48,234 nucleotides of DNA, taken from contig NW_001865084.1 in NCBI RefSeq assembly GCF_000002865.3, positions 176,230-224,463 of the forward strand. Reading direction: 5' to 3'. A program made the translations under genes and the position numbers. The notes below the pieces were generated by a model that saw nothing but the letters and a program-made list of their open reading frames with translations, ran no database searches and was not told the origin of the DNA. Positions within the stretch are counted from its first letter, which is position 1; every line of letters starts with the position of its first letter. This document shows, piece by piece, positions 33,390 through 47,700 of this stretch. The stretch is from Monosiga brevicollis MX1. Taxonomy: Eukaryota > Opisthokonta > Choanoflagellata > Craspedida > Salpingoecidae.

Positions 33390-35471
33390 ATGGAACGCAG
33401 CTCCTCCTCAGTGTCACCCATTCCGACGCGAAGGGAAAGGTCAACGGCGGTCGCCACTCATCCAGCCGGCCCAGGCATGCCTTCTTCCGATCACTCGGAA
33501 CCATCACATGCCCCAACCCAGCACAACGAGGCGACCGTGCCCGTTGACACCCAAAACCAAGACCCCGGTACGCAAGGGAGCAGCGGCAGCACCAGCAGCA
33601 ACAGCAGTATGCATTCAAGCAAAAGTATCAGCAGTGGTTCCGAGCATGACAGCGGCACTGGTACCGATGACACCAGCAGCGACGGCGTTAGTGAGTTACC
33701 TCTAGCAAGTGATGATGAAGCTCCCAAGTCTCGTCGACCGTCACCACTTTCACCGCCTACGCCACGACCCAGGCTATTGAAACATGCCCCAGCACAGGCT
33801 GTTCATGACGCGGGACAGTCTCGCACCCGTCAATCCGCACCGGCCGCACGTCTTTGCAGCCCAACTTCCTCCAAGGCAGGCGACCGCACAGCTGCTCCAA
33901 ACGGTGATCAAAGGGGCTGTTCTTCCTCTTCTGCAAAGGCAGCAACCCTACCTCCCGCTTCCTTCAAACGCTCAGCTGTCCAATCACTCGCTCGAGGCAA
34001 AGAATCCCCCGCCCCTTCCCCGGAAAGCAATACATCCCTGCCGACTGGCGCCCCCCCTGTTTCCAAGCGTGCTCGAGCTGATGGAGGCCTGGGCAAGCAG
34101 CAGAAGGAAACCTCACAGCCGTTGGCTCAACGTTCTGTGTCGCGCACCTTGGACGCCGTCAAGCGGCGCGACAAGGATGAAGTGGTGGAAGAGGAGGAGG
34201 GAGATATCGATAATCTCGATGAGGAGGATCATGAACCATCTCTGACTGCGCTGAAGGGGATCTCAGATCATACATTGCTGGGCCCGCGCCGCACTTTTAA
34301 CTTGCACCTGAAGCAAAACGCTTTGAGGCCTGATGAGGTGGCAGCTTTGAAGCGATTGCGACGACGCCGCCTAAACGCGCTCTATGCCCGCGGGAGTCGT
34401 CAGCGCAAAAAGCACCGAGCAAAACTGGCTGCCCGGGAGGCGGAAGATCAACAAGACGTGGCCACCATGCACGGGCCGGACAACGGGATGATTCAGCGCC
34501 AGATCAGACAACTGCGGGTTGCTTTGGCTGCGTGCTTGGCAGATCGTCAGTTTCTATTGCAGCGACTAGGCGCCGTGGGCATGGGTGTGGACCTATCTGA
34601 GATGCGCTATCAGCCCAACATGGAAGACTCGACCACCGTCACGGTTAAGGCGCCTTCCAAGCCAACGATACGCATTGGCAATGCTCAGTCCGCTATGCGC
34701 TCCTCTGATCGTGTGACGAGATTGTCGTCCACAGCCGTTCCAGACTCGGACAAGGAGCCCGGGCTCGCAAGCCGCGCGCACAGTCACGAACGTGCGTTCT
34801 TTGTGGATGACGAGGATGATCAGCCAGTTCGACAAAAGCAGAGTACCAAAGAGCGGGACGGGCATACTCAATCGTCACCAACAAGGCGAGCAAGCTCATC
34901 GCCGCAAGCAAAGAGCAGGAAGGGGGCATCCCAATCTGCCGCCTACGCAGGGCCGCAACCAATGACATGGAGTGATCATGGCCCGTCATCCCAGCTGGCA
35001 CGCATGCCATCCGTATCGATGGAGTTTGAAAGGTCTGACATCATGCCAGCGCCCCCGAATGGGTTTTCGACACCAGTGCCCCATCTCCAACTCGACGTGC
35101 GAGCTCAAATGAATGTCCAGGCTCATATGCAAGCTCAAGCTCAAGCCCAAGCCCAGGCCCAGGCTCAGGCCCAGGCCCAGGCTCAGACCTTCAACATGTG
35201 GCAAGCCCACAACATGTATCCATACGCGCCACCATCAACGCACTATGCAACAACGCCGGCCGTCGTGGCCCTGAATCCGCAGCCCCAAGCAAACATGATG
35301 ATGGGCGGCAATACAGGATACCCCGTGTATGCACCGTCCCCCGGCATGCCCGCGCAACTTCATAGACCCATGGGTGCTGTGCACCCGCTCTCTGCACTCG
35401 CACCGCGCATGTCTTGGACCCTTGGCGCTCCCGTCAATCACCCCTCCCGTACACAAACATCAAGCCCCTAA
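33390..35471 (+). CDS. bZIP-like basic-region protein, putative transcription factor
   Basis: Single-exon frame of 693 aa. The first 300 residues are Ser/Pro-rich with acidic patches (EVVEEEEGDIDNLDEEDHE), typical of disordered regulatory regions. At about 320-345 lies RRRRLNALYARGSRQRKK, which fits the bZIP basic-region pattern N-x2-(A/Y)-A-x2-(S/C)-R. A leucine sits nine residues after the invariant Arg (KLAAREAED). The next heptads do not keep leucines: a 13-residue non-helical segment (about QQDVATMHGPDNG) intervenes before a second coiled-coil-like stretch (MIQRQIRQLRVALAACL). Near residue 575-600 is an AQ dipeptide repeat, and the tail is Pro/Ala/Met-rich. It may bind DNA as a divergent bZIP, but dimerisation is uncertain. 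No introns are seen, unlike most neighbours. No orthologue is recognised. Confidence 0.8.
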   Translation: MERSSSSVSPIPTRRERSTAVATHPAGPGMPSSDHSEPSHAPTQHNEATVPVDTQNQDPGTQGSSGSTSSNSSMHSSKSISSGSEHDSGTGTDDTSSDGVSELPLASDDEAPKSRRPSPLSPPTPRPRLLKHAPAQAVHDAGQSRTRQSAPAARLCSPTSSKAGDRTAAPNGDQRGCSSSSAKAATLPPASFKRSAVQSLARGKESPAPSPESNTSLPTGAPPVSKRARADGGLGKQQKETSQPLAQRSVSRTLDAVKRRDKDEVVEEEEGDIDNLDEEDHEPSLTALKGISDHTLLGPRRTFNLHLKQNALRPDEVAALKRLRRRRLNALYARGSRQRKKHRAKLAAREAEDQQDVATMHGPDNGMIQRQIRQLRVALAACLADRQFLLQRLGAVGMGVDLSEMRYQPNMEDSTTVTVKAPSKPTIRIGNAQSAMRSSDRVTRLSSTAVPDSDKEPGLASRAHSHERAFFVDDEDDQPVRQKQSTKERDGHTQSSPTRRASSSPQAKSRKGASQSAAYAGPQPMTWSDHGPSSQLARMPSVSMEFERSDIMPAPPNGFSTPVPHLQLDVRAQMNVQAHMQAQAQAQAQAQAQAQAQAQTFNMWQAHNMYPYAPPSTHYATTPAVVALNPQPQANMMMGGNTGYPVYAPSPGMPAQLHRPMGAVHPLSALAPRMSWTLGAPVNHPSRTQTSSP
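35133..35187 (+). repeat. Coding hexanucleotide repeat (Ala-Gln)n
   Basis: GCTCAA/GCCCAG/GCTCAG units encode an alternating Ala-Gln run in the bZIP-like protein. Both codons vary by synonymous changes, so the peptide repeat is either old or under selection. Confidence 0.85.
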
Positions 35472-37792: not shown

Positions 37793-39967
37793 TTAACTGC
37801 ACAGCGGGCACGAAGCATTCGCACTCAAGACTTGACAGTCACCCAAGCCGTCGAGCTCGCTCGCAGCCATTGTGAGGTTTAAGACAGGATTGTTGCAAAT
37901 CCGAATCGCGGTTCCCGTCGAAACGAGCGCGCCCAGACCACTGATACTAGACAGCTTGGCATTCTCCTGAACATGAAGAAAAAAAAAAACAAAAAAGGAG
38001 GTCGGCAAATCCAATGTTGAATCAGCAAAAAAAAAAAAAAAAAAAGGATAAAAAATTAGACTCGGCAAAGGTCACACGCTCTGGATCGTGGGAGAAGTGG
38101 AACGCGGGCTTTCCGAAACTTACGGCAATGTACAAGTTGCCTTCGATCGATTCGATTCGGCTCAAGCCGTTCAAATCAGAGAGCTCAGTGTTGTTCTACA
38201 CCAGAATGTATGATTGAGTTTTATTCGGAAACCAGGTGGACCTGATCCCACTCACAAGACATATACCACAGCCATCAATAGCGCCCGGTATAACTCAAAG
38301 TACCGCGCAATTTCATACATTGATGTGCAGGTTACCGCCAATGTGAGTCACGTTGCTCAGCCCGTCGATTGTTGTCAAGGCCTTGTTTTCCTAACGTGTG
38401 CACGGTGAGATCCATGCATTGCCTCGACACCCAGGCCAGCCAACCCGACGTTTGTACACTGGTGTGCCTGCCTCGAGACTGTGTGACCTCAAAGGGACAA
38501 GGGACCGCTCGATGGCACTCTTACGCGGATGAAGAGATAGCCTGGGATATCAGTGAGGTGTCCAAGCCCGCTCATATTTGACAATGCATCGTTGCCCTGC
38601 GCAGTTGATTCCGCGGAGTCAGCATGGAAGCACGTATGCTTGGGGGACAGTGGTGGACTGTGCTCGCAAACTTACATAAATGGATAGGTAACCGTTGAGA
38701 GTTGACAGCTGATGCAAGCCGCCAAGACTGGCAAGACGCGAATTGCCCTACAAAAATGAATGATATTAATCAGTGTTGTGACCACGATCTTACGCTACCA
38801 GGACGCACATCCCAACCTACAAAGATAAACAGGTCACCGCCAATTGCCTTCAGCATTCCCAAGCCGTCAATGTCCATCAGTGCCTTGTTAGCCTGAATGA
38901 GGTCAGCAACCAACACGCCGAGTTTCAGTGGCAACCAGAAACGCATTCGTAACGTAAGAGATGGAGCACCGGTATGTAACCAAGCGCTCAATGTCGATCT
39001 GCAGCATCACCCACAAAAATCGTCAACCCAGACCCCACGGAGCCCAGCTGCTCGAGCCCTGCGAGGCGACTTAAGGCATGATTGCCCTGTCGAAAAATAA
39101 ATCAAGGAGGTCGGATCCGTGAGAGAGGGCAAAGAATAATATGATGGATTTACCAGGGTCAGGTAAGAATCTCACGCACGTCAAGAGAGAAAGAGCCGCC
39201 TATCAACTGAAGGCGTCTCAGACCTTCAATGCTCGTCAAGCCTCCGTTGTTCTGACAGCAAGGAAGTTCTCAGGATCAGAGCGATGCCGCCGTCACAGTG
39301 CTCGTGCAACCAAGATACAATTCCGGAAAATCAAAGATGGCAAGCTTACTTGGATATAAAGAGACCCACCGACCGTGGTGAGGCGGCCAAACGCGTCAAG
39401 ATGAGCCAAGGCACCATTTTGCTATCACCGGGAAGAGGAACAGCCAAAGTGAACGATGAAGCTGGGCGAACTGAGCACGAAAGCAGGCCCAAAAGCGAAA
39501 CCTACAGCAATCCTCAAATCTTCATCAATGCGGACAAGGCGCTGAAAGACCTGCAGGTCTGATGCTTGCAGGGACGTGCAGGTGTTCAGGTCGACGCTGC
39601 CTTTGATGTGCGTCACATTGGTCGGCACGTCGATGAAATTGCAGCCAACGCTCTGATCATAGACGACCGGTGGATCCGTTGGAGAAAACGGGGTGGTTGA
39701 TGCTGGCGGTGTTGTCGCGCTTGGAGTCGACGCGGCGGAATCCTGACCATATTCCGCTCGCAGCTCGGCCAACTCGCCCAACACATCCACGCCGTTCAGG
39801 TAAATTCGTGAGTCACTCGACGAGCCACCACTGCTTATATGCAGGTGGCCATCGGCATCGACCTCAATGGTGGGATCACCAACAATTTCACCAGCCTTCA
39901 CGGACATTACCACCCCACACACCATGATCACCGCGGCGCTGGCGACACAGCCCAACAGCCGGGTCAT
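37793..39967 (-). CDS. Secreted leucine-rich-repeat protein; eight consecutive 72-nt exons, one repeat each
   Basis: Exons 39967-39506 (462 nt), 39421-39350, 39251-39180, 39086-39015, 38892-38821, 38747-38676, 38596-38525, 38390-38319, 38195-38124 (each exactly 72 nt) and 37966-37793 (174 nt). They total 1212 nt (403 aa), and every intron is phase 0. Exon 1 encodes a signal peptide (LLGCVASAAVIMVCGVVM), a Ser/Thr/Pro stretch and the first cap. Each 72-nt exon encodes one 24-residue LRR with the pattern N-N-x2-L-x2-I-x-G-L-x2-L-x2-I-x-G-x-L-x-I, e.g. NNGGLTSIEGLRRLQ and ANKALMDIDGLGML. The last exon adds a final repeat and a Cys-containing cap (NASCPLCS). No membrane anchor is seen, so it is probably secreted. 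The repeat type resembles the receptor L-domain. Binding partner and role are unknown. A related gene lies across the 5S gene. Confidence 0.9.
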
Positions 39968-41491: not shown

Positions 41492-44072
41492 ATGCTGCGC
41501 CACATCGCCATTGTCGCCCTTGCGGCGCTACTCTCACTGCCTCCCTCGGCCTCGCAATCCATTGATTCCAATGCTGGTCAGAACTCAAACGCTGACTCTT
41601 CCCCACCTCTCTCGTTCTGCTGCTTCTGGATGCCATGCCGCGTCAGTGTCGTATGCTCACATCTGCCGAATTCTCTCGTTCCCATTTCTCCTGCCTCCCT
41701 GCCGCCCTGATAATAGTGCTTGAAGCCATCAAGGATCATTTGCATCCCATCTGCACCTCTCATGGTGTCAGCGTGATTGACAACGCAACCAATACCAAGA
41801 CGTGCCTGTGCGACAGCAGCTACGCGGGTGACTCTTGCGAGTAGGTTTTTTTATTTTTTATTTTTATTTTTTTTTTTTTGTCACGTTGCGCATTCTGCTC
41901 CGCCCACACCAAGCCCTTACCAATGGCCTATCTGCACTCTGTAGCGAGTTCGTGGGCGTGGGCATACTGCGCTGTGCGCTGGCGGGTGATGTGCCCCTGC
42001 TTCTCACCGTGCTTGAAGGCGTGACGACGCTCCGTGGCGACCTTGTCATGTCGGATGGCTGCGTGACGGCTGATGCCATCACCGCCGTGGGCAAGCTCAC
42101 CAAGATCGATGGCAACGCTTTCATCTATGACCCGACCACACCGACCCAGCTTGCCACGGACTGGCCCGAAAATCATTGGGAAACTGTGACCGGCTGCATC
42201 GCCCTGGCCAATCTGCCCGAAGCCGGCCTTGTTGGACGCACGCTCTTCCCTGATCTCACTGAGCTTGGTGCTTGTTCACTCGACGAGGTGGAGAGCAAAC
42301 TGCCCTCGGCCTACTGGGACACGTTTGTCAATCGAACCATCCCGCCTCAAATCTCGATGATGCTCAACCACATTGGAGCGGACCACGAGGCCTGTGTCAG
42401 CGGCTGTGACAACATTTCCCTTGCTTCTAAGCTGCGCACGATGCCCGGTGCCCTACTGCTAGATGACCTGCCCGCCCGAGACCTCAACGAAGGTCTCCTG
42501 GAACACGTGGGCGGCCTGCACGTCCGCAACTGCCCCCATGTTGAAATCTTGGGCACGTCCCATCTGGCGACCATTGGCGAGCACGGCCTGCTCCTTCGTG
42601 AAACCGGCCTGAAGAACCTTGACGACCTGGCAGGGGTTCAAGTTGTTCGACTTGGCTTTGTGGATATCACAAGCAACGACCACCTGGAGAATGTGCTGGG
42701 CTTCAACCCGACTGTTGTCGAGCGCAGCGGCACGGTCAGCACCTCTGTTGAATTTCAGCTCGTATGCCAGAACGGCTATCATTCAGGCTTTCCCGAGACC
42801 GAGTGTACTTGCGCCTCGCCCGAGTACTCGGGCAAGCTGTGCGACACCATCACCGGTGACTTTTTCTGCATGGACTTTGCCCAAGCCGAGACCCTCAACC
42901 AGACCCTAGCCAACGTGCGCCACGTGATTGGTAACATTCATCTGACTGACACGTGCATGGAGATGTCGTTCCTCAACTTCCCCTACCTCACGAGCATTGA
43001 AGGCAGCCTCATTGTCAACTCCTTTGGCATGCCCATTGTCGAGCCAGGCTTTCCGAGTTTGAAGTCTGTCTCGACCGTGCACATCGAGTCTGTACCCGCA
43101 ACCAGCATCGATTGGCTGCCCGAGCTCGAGACGGTGGGCTCGCTGAGCATCCAGAACAACGACCAGCTTACCAACCTGTCGGGACTCGCCGCGCTGACCA
43201 CCATCGACGAGGCACTCGAGATCTTTGCGTGCCCTGCGATGACCTCGTTTACCGGCCTCGAGAATGTGGCGCGCATTGGTTCGCTCTCCATCGTCTCCTC
43301 AAATTCGTTAACCAACTTTTCAGCCCTCAACGGTGCCGAGCCGGTGCTTCTGCTCGGTCAGAACTCTGCACCAGCTCTGAGCATTGATGCGTGCGCAGAT
43401 TGCGAAGCTCTTTGGTCGCACTTGGTGGAGACGGTCGAGATTGCTGACGGCGCCAGTGTCAGCGTGCCGTGGTCTACCTGTGGCGGCTTTGGCACGGTGC
43501 CGGCTGGTAGCCTGTCTTGCGCCTGTAACCCAGGCTACACAGACTACATGTGCACCGGCTACAACGGCGATGACTTGATCTGCAACGTGTCGACCGCCAG
43601 TGACATCAAGGCAATGCTTGCTGGCGTCACCCACCTCTACAGCCCTCTAGTCCTTCTCCTTTATTGTGGCGCTGGCTCCAGCTATGGACTTTTGGACACG
43701 GTGACATACGCAGCCGCTCTCTACTTTGAAGATGCCATCGATTATCAGGGCCAGATCCCGGCGGGACTGGGCTATGTGAGCATCTTTGAGACGCAATTAT
43801 CTGACATGTCGCTCTTTGGCGCAGTCACGCACATTGACAGCCTGGAGATTAACAGCAACGAATACATGACCACTTTGGATGGCCTCGAGAGCCTGGAGAC
43901 AGCGGGCCAGCTCGTGGTTTACAACAATCCCACGCTGACCAACGTGGATGCGCTCGGCAGCCTCCTCAGCGTCACCGGCGACCTCATCATCGTCAACAAC
44001 GATGTGGACGTCAACGCCATCGCCTTTGACGTCAACGCCATCTCCACCAACACCACCCTAGTCACCGGCTAA
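41492..44072 (+). CDS. Secreted LRR (receptor L-domain-like) and EGF-like protein
   Basis: Exons 41492-41576, 41717-41840 and 41945-44072 join to 2337 nt (778 aa). A signal peptide (HIAIVALAALLSLPPSASQ) is followed by three Cys-rich EGF-like pieces. They end in TCLCDSSYAGDSC (to about 70), ECTCASPEYSGKLC (to about 370) and SCACNPGYTDYMC (to about 606). Between and after them lie LRR blocks of the same kind as in the minus-strand neighbour, e.g. QNNDQLTNLSGLAALTTID and YNNPTLTNVDALGSLL. The order is therefore EGF, LRR block, EGF, LRR block, EGF, LRR block. No transmembrane helix or kinase is seen, so it is probably secreted or matrix-bound. Nearly all repeats sit in one 2.1-kb exon, unlike the one-repeat-per-exon neighbour. 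The ligand is unknown. The start is the first ATG before the signal peptide. Confidence 0.88.
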
Positions 44073-44773: not shown

Positions 44774-47700
44774 ATGAAAGGGGAAGAAAACATTGTCCTT
44801 GAACACGTCTCATCAGCCTCAAGGACGCACGCCTCGTCGTCCTTGTTTTCGTAGGTGCACCAGAAGAGCACGCGCATCACACTATATGGAACATCGCTGC
44901 TTCGATACCGAGAAGATGATGGCTGCTTTCATTGCCCCGTGGGAGGATGCCACTATCGCCATGGACTCTCAGCCAACCTAAAATCACACCTCCAGCATCT
45001 GCATGAGAAACAGACGACACCCAGAGCAGCAATACCGGCGGCTGTGACTTGCGACCGGCTGCCTGCTCGCCAAAAACCTACTCGGACGCGCATGAAAAAA
45101 CGTGTGGTCAAGCTTGATCAACAGCACGGCATAGCCGCGGCTCGAATCTTCATGGGCGAGATTGGTTGCCTTGTATCCCCTGTTTTTGAATCTCCAGTGT
45201 GCACGCAGTGCGGCCATGTCCTGAGAGGCAGGGCGACGCACCATCTGTTCAAAAAACACCATGTTCGGTGCAGCCAGGAAGACATTGATGCAGCTATGGC
45301 ACTCCTGCGCCCACTGCAGCCCGAAGAGCCGCTGCTTGACCTCGGAGTTGAATCTGGGCCCCATAAGCCTATTGAAGGCATTCCCGTTCTGGACGGCGTG
45401 GGTTGCCCCTTGTGTCAGGCTTGCTTCACCACAAAAGGCAGTCTGTGGCATCACATCGTAGCCGAGCATCCCGACGAATCAGAGGCCAAGCAGCCGCCTC
45501 GACGCGTCAAGCTGCAAAAGCCGTTGCGCGGTGCCGGAGCCCGCTGTATCGAGGTCATTGTCGAAGATGGCCACGATGCCTCGGCAGCCGACGTCAGCGA
45601 AAACGAGGAAGAGCTGGAGGAGCAGCAGCGGTTCAAGCAGCTGATCTCCAGCACCCAGGCCATGGCGTCAGAGGCCGAGGAGAAGCGCTGCCCGCACGGC
45701 GTTCACCAGATGCACCCGTTCTACGATAGTGTGGGCATGACGCTGATCCTGAGCGAGCTGACCCCAGAGCAAATTCTCAAGCTGGGCCACGACACCCCAC
45801 CCGCACCACTCGTGTCAGGCATGCACGAGCTCTTGTGGGAGGCCCACGGACAATTGTCCCAGCACGGCCTGGCGGCTGCTTCCGTGGCGTCCTTGTTCGA
45901 AGATGAAGAGTTGCAAGTTGAGCCACAAACTTTACCCCAAGTATCTCCTGGCACGATGAGCAGATACCTAAACATTGGAGCGCGGTTGGTGCATTTTATA
46001 CTGCTACTGGACGCACTGCCAGCCCCCGAGCCATCCAGCTTTTTGAGCCAGGTGCTCGCCAGTCGTGGGGAGGCCATAACTACAGCTGCTTTGGCCGTGC
46101 AAGACGCGCTGGATGCGGGACTGAGCGGGGAGGATCTTGTCGAGCCCTTGGCGGCACTGTGGCTGGCACTGGTGAATGCAGAGCTACATCTGTTTGACAA
46201 CGACAAGGTGCACTTTGTCAACGTGTTTTTGTTGTGCACGGCCGTGTCCAAGGGAAGCGGTGTCTTGCAAGACATCCGGCGCTGGACCACAACGCAGGCC
46301 GGTTTGATTTATATTTTCAAGCTGTTTTTGCTCCGGTTTGGCAAGGCACAGCGATGGGCCACTGCGGGTAAACTCAGGCCTTTTCTACAGTCTGGACGGC
46401 TGGTGCATTTTCTGAGCCAGCGCATGACGGCGGCTCGCTCTTCCAGCACGGCCGATGGGCAGGTTGGAGTGGATATTGACGTGCAAACGGACGGTGACAT
46501 GACGGACGAGGCGCTGCACACCATTGTTTGTCAGGGTACTGAACTCAACGTGAAAGAGATTGGGACCGCCCTGGTACAGATGCGCAACGATATGAAAGAA
46601 ATTTTAGACACCCACCTCTTGCTGGGATCGGATCTGCGAGAGCGACATGCTCTCGAGTATGTCCGGCTACGGTCGAAGGAGGATCGGACCAACAGGGTCA
46701 AGAATTGGTGGGTGGGCCATGACAGCCCAGCTGAGCGGGCCCTATTGGATCACATTGGCCAGACTCCGAGCTTGCGGCAAGAATTTATCTGCACGGAGCT
46801 TGGCCCAGAAGGAGCTGATGAAGAGCCGACCTTTCGAGAAGACCGCGTGCGGGAATGGCTTCTATTTGTGGGCAGGTTCAACCAGCTGGCGCTCACCTAC
46901 ACCCACATGGCTGGAGGTACGCTTGCGATCGAGCAAAGACTCTGTTTGAGAAGCTTGGCATGTTTATTGTACCACTCTTATCTGTTTGCATTGGCTTTGG
47001 CGTTTTGTTAGGTCTGCCACCTCAAGCAACCGTATATCAAGGGCTATCCTACAAAAATGGCGTGGGCCGGCAACGGGCCGTGTTTTTTGCTGGAAAGCAG
47101 CTCTCCATATTGACTCGTCTGGGTAAAACCCACGGGCTCTCTCTAGATGAGCAGCACGCCTTTCGGTACATGGACGAGGAAGTCAGCAAGCTGATTTTCA
47201 TGTATTTGCTCTTGTGCAAGCCTCTGGAGCAGATGCTAACCAGCTGGCTGGAGAAGCGGGGCGCTCTTCAAACCCCTCGCGATGGCGGGCGTGGAACCTA
47301 CGACAATGATCAGGAAGAGGAGGATTTATTGGAGGACGAGGGGGATGAAGACCACATGAGCCACGACGATGGCATGACCTTGCGACGCGAGGTACAGGAC
47401 GCTCAACGCCACTACAACAACAGCCACTTGCTCTTCAACATTGCGCCTCTGCAGACCATGCTCAGCCCAGCCTCTATCTACGCTGCCTTTCGTCGACAAA
47501 TGGCCACCTACCTGCATCAGCCTACGCTTGGAGTGGCAAAGTGGCGACACGCTGCTACCTTTTGGATGACAACATTTGTGACAAACCGGCTCTTTGCCGA
47601 CCCCGCGAGCACTTTGGGTAGCCTGATGCGCACCCAGGCACAGCCCTTGGGCAACATGGCCAAAGACTTCTTTGCTACCGCAACAAGCTACCAATTGCAA

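Follow-up and report, generated by a model that had tools for sequence, protein, structure and literature searches.

An exon-per-repeat gene family with Receptor L domain-type repeats in the choanoflagellate Monosiga brevicollis, a putative germline repertoire of recognition proteins

The genome of Monosiga brevicollis probably encodes, at about 33 loci, a family of secreted-looking, capped solenoids of the Receptor L domain type which evolve by recombination of exon-plus-intron units and constitute a germline repertoire of recognition proteins. The member described in most detail below lies in the window, that is, the whole stretch of 48,234 nucleotides that was analyzed.

Exon structure of the window gene

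The minus strand of the window (39967..37793) contains eight exons of 72 nt, each encoding one 24-residue repeat in phase 0 and flanked by AG and GT, which were identified by scanning all AG..72 nt..GT/GC segments in the interval and are preceded by an N-terminal exon and followed by a Cys-rich C-cap exon. Exon 1 (39506..39967) includes the start codon, a hydrophobic leader, a Thr/Pro-rich linker and a Cys-containing N-cap. The eight repeat exons, all on the minus strand, in phase 0 and bounded by AG..GT, are located at 39350..39421 (QNGALAHLDAFGRLTTVGGSLYIQ), 39180..39251 (NNGGLTSIEGLRRLQLIGGSFSLD), 39015..39086 (GNHALSRLAGLEQLGSVGSGLTIF), 38821..38892 (ANKALMDIDGLGMLKAIGGDLFIF), 38676..38747 (GNSRLASLGGLHQLSTLNGYLSIY), 38525..38596 (GNDALSNMSGLGHLTDIPGYLFIR), 38319..38390 (ENKALTTIDGLSNVTHIGGNLHIN) and 38124..38195 (NNTELSDLNGLSRIESIEGNLYIA). 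In the last exon (37793..37966, minus strand), the start of a ninth repeat is fused to the Cys-rich C-cap, which is followed by the stop codon. All nine introns are of the GT..AG type and in phase 0; the seven inter-repeat introns are 98, 93, 122, 73, 79, 134 and 123 nt long, and those on either side of the repeat exons 84 and 157 nt. Joining the ten exons yields a single open frame of 403 residues, from the ATG at 39967 to the stop codon ending at 37793.

The principal features of a preliminary description of this gene are thus borne out, namely eight open, AG..GT-flanked 72-nt phase-0 exons with one repeat each, inter-repeat introns of 73 to 134 bases, and a ten-exon model with a continuous reading frame; the strong divergence of the exons that it noted is reflected in the 33-42% identity of the repeats to the first one. 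Elsewhere, AG..GT flanks are present on 629 of the 165743 open 72-nt windows (0.4%; overlapping windows on both strands of 26 scanned loci), a background rate against which the eight out of eight in the window gene cannot be attributed to chance. The leader of exon 1 resembles a signal peptide by eye and in a crude hydrophobicity test, and on the basis of this crude test the protein looks secreted.

Repeat type and domain architecture

In the Pfam scan, the spliced protein matches the Receptor L domain (PF01030) in three stretches with 57.4 bits (cut-off 21.8). Canonical LRR was considered as the repeat type and rejected, given that the sole LRR model listed was LRR_4 with 10.5 bits against a cut-off of 27, whereas PF01030 exceeded its own. 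The original designation as an LRR gene therefore holds with respect to the 24-residue repeat in each exon and has to be replaced by Receptor L domain as far as the repeat type is concerned. All NCBIfam matches were far below cut-off. Among the solved structures, the top match to the window protein was the insulin receptor-related protein (E 0.021), which is weak and at most consistent with the assignment to L domains, followed by antibody chains and LGR4 with E values of 0.19-0.95. By analogy, we infer that the protein forms a solenoid of the L-domain type, one face of which would serve for binding.

The same Pfam scan, which covered the window member of the family alone, returned no match to a ROC-COR GTPase and none to kinase, TIR or furin-like domains. 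Across the family, 22 C-cap exons stop 54-60 residues past their start, which leaves no space for a kinase or TIR domain behind the C-cap, and inspection of the C-cap exons by eye detected no hydrophobic run indicative of a transmembrane segment.

Repeats of the same general type also occur in uninterrupted form. The PF01030 profile produced five matches in the whole genome, none of them among the short array exons. Within the window, a 745-codon open frame on the plus strand (41835-44072) that adjoins the array gene matches the Receptor L domain with 31.5 bits; AG..GT flanks are absent from all three of its repeats, one of which lies between AG and GC. Matches with similar scores are found in open frames of 370-827 codons on contigs C48, C47, C23, C45, C46 and C33, and those on C47 and C33 adjoin array genes as well. 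Among 72 candidate stretches, the sole confirmed relative comes from Tenacibaculum (L043, Tenacibaculum pelagium), with uninterrupted repeats that are 34% identical to the repeats of the M. brevicollis locus L019 in the best segment and of which 0 of 6 are AG..GT-flanked. A bacterial origin of the family does not follow from this match, which shows that the repeat type is more widespread and says nothing on its source.

A family of arrays in the M. brevicollis genome

The preliminary description had proposed to look for other genes with tandem 72-nt phase-0 exons in the host genome, and at least 33 loci of the family were found. Searches of the genome (39.5 Mb in 57 contigs) listed 101 matches with the repeat region and 116 matches with the C-cap as the query. 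The family comprises 28 C-cap places, counted by hand in the C-cap search, and five arrays with no C-cap in the stretch examined; because both searches score the best candidates only, these at least 33 loci represent a lower bound. In the sequence itself, 27 of the 28 C-cap places were also read (23 and 4 in the two sets that follow), the one at C27:508437 not being recognized there. The script-based reading covered 28 gene clusters in 26 stretches and, in addition, five further short stretches.

In the 28 clusters, AG precedes 301 of the 307 repeat anchors; among these 301, 23 are C-cap exons and 278 internal exons. The internal exons end at a GT at 72 nt in 252 cases, at a GT at 69 nt in 21, at a GC at 72 nt in one, and otherwise in four, so that 273 of 278 carry AG..GT at 72 or 69 nt. 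Similarly, in the five further short loci all 29 anchors follow an AG (4 C-caps, 21 with GT at 72, one with GT at 69 and 3 others). The invariance of exon length that was first noted thus applies to the window gene, whereas in the family at large exons of 72 nt predominate and some have 69 nt. The 69-nt exons of the 28 clusters (21 internal exons, in L011, L013 and others) encode 23 residues, are one residue short near the end of the repeat, and retain phase 0.

The number of internal repeats per cluster ranges from 0 in L024, which consists of a C-cap only, to 22 in L032. An N-cap motif was recognized by eye upstream of 24 of the 28 clusters and not in L011, L017, L018 and L024, in a search that reached 700 bases back and met masked sequence in L017. 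The C-cap exons of 21 clusters could be aligned and have conserved cysteines (of 26 candidates, four were dropped as not being C-caps, and 21 of the 22 remaining were aligned, with L019 left out).

Several loci show signs of exon decay. Good coding repeats that lack the AG acceptor are present in L032 (three; C17:343500-350500) and in L013 (one), two exons of L015 have a shifted or interrupted frame, and in L024 (C52:28700-37700), which is perhaps a relic, no repeat exon was recognized upstream of the C-cap exon. A general habit of the LRR genes of this genome appears an unlikely source of the exon-per-repeat design, judging from the at least 148 LRR_8 matches, most of which sit in long open frames.

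Copying and recombination of exon-intron units

In the window gene, neighboring introns are no more similar to each other than random introns (identity 0.48 in both cases), and the nearest relative is in the same gene for only one of the eight exons. The earlier inference that the array is not a recent duplication accordingly stands for this gene; it does not extend to the family, other members of which are recent duplicates. In L010+, L015, L018 and L019, the mean identity of neighboring introns is 0.81-0.89, compared to 0.48 between genes, and the first two exons of L010+ are 97% identical with introns that are 100% identical. Such near-identical neighboring introns, in the extreme without a single difference, indicate that in the young arrays exon and intron were copied as one unit. 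For the family as a whole, the nearest relative of an exon resides in the same gene in 94 of 252 cases, with 10.8 expected at random.

Comparison of the 28 clusters revealed only two pairs with at least 85% identity over at least 150 bases. One of these, L015 and L019, is located on a single contig and is 88% identical along 2177 aligned bases, with 16 and 7 internal repeats, respectively. The other, L012+ and L036+, are neighbors on C10 (last repeat of the former at 194.5 kb, first repeat of the latter at 196.7 kb) with 15 and 7 internal repeats, and form the only clear mosaic pair, that is, 2 of the 28 clusters. These two genes share exon 1 and are 99% identical in the upstream 650 bases; repeats 1-3 are 100, 97 and 96% identical, repeat 4 is 69% identical, and repeats 5-7, at 50-60%, are unrelated. 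The identity drops towards the 3' side of intron 3, and the local alignment still runs 32 bases into exon 4, the first half of which is alike; the junction is hence placed either in the terminal stretch of the intron or near the beginning of exon 4. Near-identical arrays may also result from misassembly. The widely varying repeat numbers, the recent exon-plus-intron copies and the mosaic pair jointly support, as far as can be read from sequence, the gain and loss of repeats without a frameshift as an evolutionary process, in line with what had been suggested for the window gene.

Variable positions of the repeat

Entropy, computed across 252 repeats, peaks at positions 24, 22, 3, 20 and 1. Under the canonical LRR numbering, the exposed positions of the concave face are presumably 19, 20, 22, 24 and 1, and these five were used, by analogy with that numbering, as face positions in the dN/dS analysis. 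For pairs of units with at least 80% identity (149 pairs of 64 units from 13 genes, which are not independent and for which recombination can mislead such counts), dN/dS is 1.92 (1.35-2.59) at the face positions and 0.37 (0.28-0.48) elsewhere. The respective values are 2.14 (1.30-3.56) and 0.43 at a threshold of 85%, 1.40 (1.10-1.81) and 0.30 at 75%, and 1.07 (0.90-1.25) and 0.27 at 70% (879 pairs); at thresholds 0.80 and 0.85, the non-face ratio is 0.37-0.47 for within-gene pairs and for all pairs. When between-gene pairs alone are considered, the interval of the face dN/dS includes 1 at all four thresholds. An intron-based comparison, 164 of the 178 pairs of which come from L015 and L019, agreed in direction and gave non-synonymous change 3.1x the intron divergence at five positions that were chosen after seeing the entropy. 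In the same comparison, synonymous divergence was also 1.8x that of introns, in part because the pairs had been picked by intron similarity. Within these limits, in recent copies the residues of the predicted concave face change faster than synonymous sites.

Comparison with known systems

Lamprey variable lymphocyte receptors are built of 24-residue modules between N- and C-caps, vary in the concave face and in repeat number, and are assembled somatically. The M. brevicollis genes resemble them in module length, in the two caps and in the variable repeat number and differ in that their arrays are read in a single genome assembly; the predicted face, assigned by analogy, may be diversified as well, with a dN/dS of about 2 in recent pairs and about 1 in older ones. 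The L domains of the insulin and EGF receptors consist of few turns and are joined to furin-like and kinase parts; the repeat type is common to these proteins and the window protein, whereas in the latter there is no furin-like or kinase Pfam match. Glycoprotein hormone receptors are membrane GPCRs encoded in single genes. Their LRR exons, as described in the accessible part of one study, are similar in size to those of the arrays and contain about one LRR each but are in phase 2 rather than phase 0 (PMC11378527).

Published examples of the design come from brown algae and from a ciliate. According to the accessible part of the same study, ROCO (and other) genes of brown algae contain 72-bp phase-2 LRR exons that are shuffled and give rise to splice variants, and positive selection is reported for their concave side (PMC11378527). 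One repeat per 72-bp exon and variable repeat number are shared with these genes, which are candidate immune receptors, and the face dN/dS of recent pairs may parallel the concave-side selection; the differences are phase 2, canonical LRR and a ROC-COR GTPase in brown algae compared to phase 0, PF01030-type repeats and, in the window protein, no match to such a domain in the choanoflagellate. In Tetrahymena thermophila, tens of thousands of 90-bp phase-2 LRR exons form arrays that are ascribed to unit duplication, and in the part of the paper available the authors state that they are aware of no other eukaryote with exons so uniform (PMC6564038). The arrays analyzed here likewise have one exact exon length and one phase, although with 72 or 69 nt, phase 0 and about 300 exons read.

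The array family differs from the described cases in phase, repeat type, architecture and lineage. A literature search at the level of titles and abstract beginnings found no report of a repeat-per-exon design in choanoflagellates, and the accessible parts of two papers on choanoflagellate LRR receptors (PMC2939053, PMC6040629) do not mention the family. A phase-0 version with a different repeat type and apparent secretion would add another instance of this solution, from the lineage that neighbors the animals. With this family it becomes testable how protists that feed on bacteria might recognize their prey, a pathogen or a partner. It is also a clean case in which to study exon recombination, as a single genome contains units copied recently, a mosaic pair whose junction can be seen, and exons in decay.

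Evolution and possible function of the arrays

Under the scenario that we favor, the unit of evolution would consist of an exon, with 24 or in some cases 23 codons, and an intron. Recombination between units or genes, presumably by unequal crossing over or conversion, would alter the number and order of repeats, an outcome seen in the comparison of paralogs, and would leave the frame intact because almost all units have phase-0 boundaries on both sides, placed at the same codon. By analogy with LRR, the exon junction would fall inside a beta-strand such that each binding strand combines the end of one exon with the start of the next. The residues predicted to form the concave beta-sheet face vary most and, in recent copies, appear to exceed the synonymous rate. 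The proteins might bind a diverse set of extracellular ligands, such as molecules on the surface of bacteria or partners in self/non-self contacts, and the result would be a germline repertoire of variable-length recognition proteins.

It has also been suggested that equal phase-0 exons are maintained so that repeats can be skipped in transcripts to produce isoforms of differing binding length. Any 72- or 69-nt exon could indeed be skipped in frame, the few good coding repeats that lack a splice signal would favor skipping, and the accessible part of the report on brown algal ROCO genes includes alternative splicing (PMC11378527); nevertheless, this explanation seems rather unlikely considering that AG..GT is intact in 273 of 278 internal exons and that copying of units accounts for the equal lengths without regulated splicing. 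Somewhat more doubtful is neutral birth and death, whereby unequal crossing over of the exon-intron unit would generate equal exons along with the observed repeat number and diversity in the absence of any recognition function. Tandem unit copies, the C-cap without repeats, the broken exons and a face dN/dS of about 1 in older pairs are all compatible with such a process, but the conserved cysteines of the C-cap and the recent pairs, in which the face evolves faster than synonymous sites while other positions are constrained, argue against it.

Parallel intron gain, that is, insertions that occurred separately at one site in a repeat protein which was originally uninterrupted, would fit the existence of uninterrupted relatives (the long open frames in the genome, the open frame in the window and Tenacibaculum) but is highly improbable. 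The codon and phase are identical in 301 of 307 repeats, and introns of neighboring units in young arrays are alignable up to identity, which implies that the introns were duplicated along with the units; on account of the shared codon and phase and of the alignable introns, per-repeat intron gain is rejected as the main process. The first intron may nonetheless have been gained by insertion.

Genome position and other genes in the window

Many of the arrays are located close to contig ends. Within 50 kb of an end are 25 of the 33 loci and 17 of the 24 clusters, whereas such sequence makes up at most 14% of the genome; for comparison, the same applies to 3 of 33 LRR_8 loci, hand-grouped from among the matches listed and restricted to contigs of known length. 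The window extends to where contig C11 (224463 bases) ends. One exact match to (TTAGGG)4 was reported in the genome (C29:493423-493446), in a search that skips simple repeats and hence decides nothing on contig ends as telomeres. A speculative and less probable extension of the favored scenario is that the secreted recognition repertoire, concentrated near contig (perhaps chromosome) ends, is actively recombining. The exon-per-repeat design would then permit arrays to grow or shrink and genes to exchange their downstream halves. The repertoire might vary among strains, or even among the cells of a single clone, and would amount to a system similar to the variable lymphocyte receptors, operating through germline or mitotic recombination and arrived at independently of brown algae and Tetrahymena.

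Further open frames were noted in the window. A 718-codon open frame on the plus strand (44855-47011) shows weak similarity to OrsD (25.4 bits, cut-off 26.6) and to zinc fingers, and an open frame at 33390-35471, also on the plus strand, contains a bZIP_Maf domain (29 bits, cut-off 22). Finally, an exon part of a Munc18-type gene matches the UNC18 structure PDB 2xhe, which we take to be from M. brevicollis itself, in 47 residues out of 49 aligned, with differences at the outermost two only.
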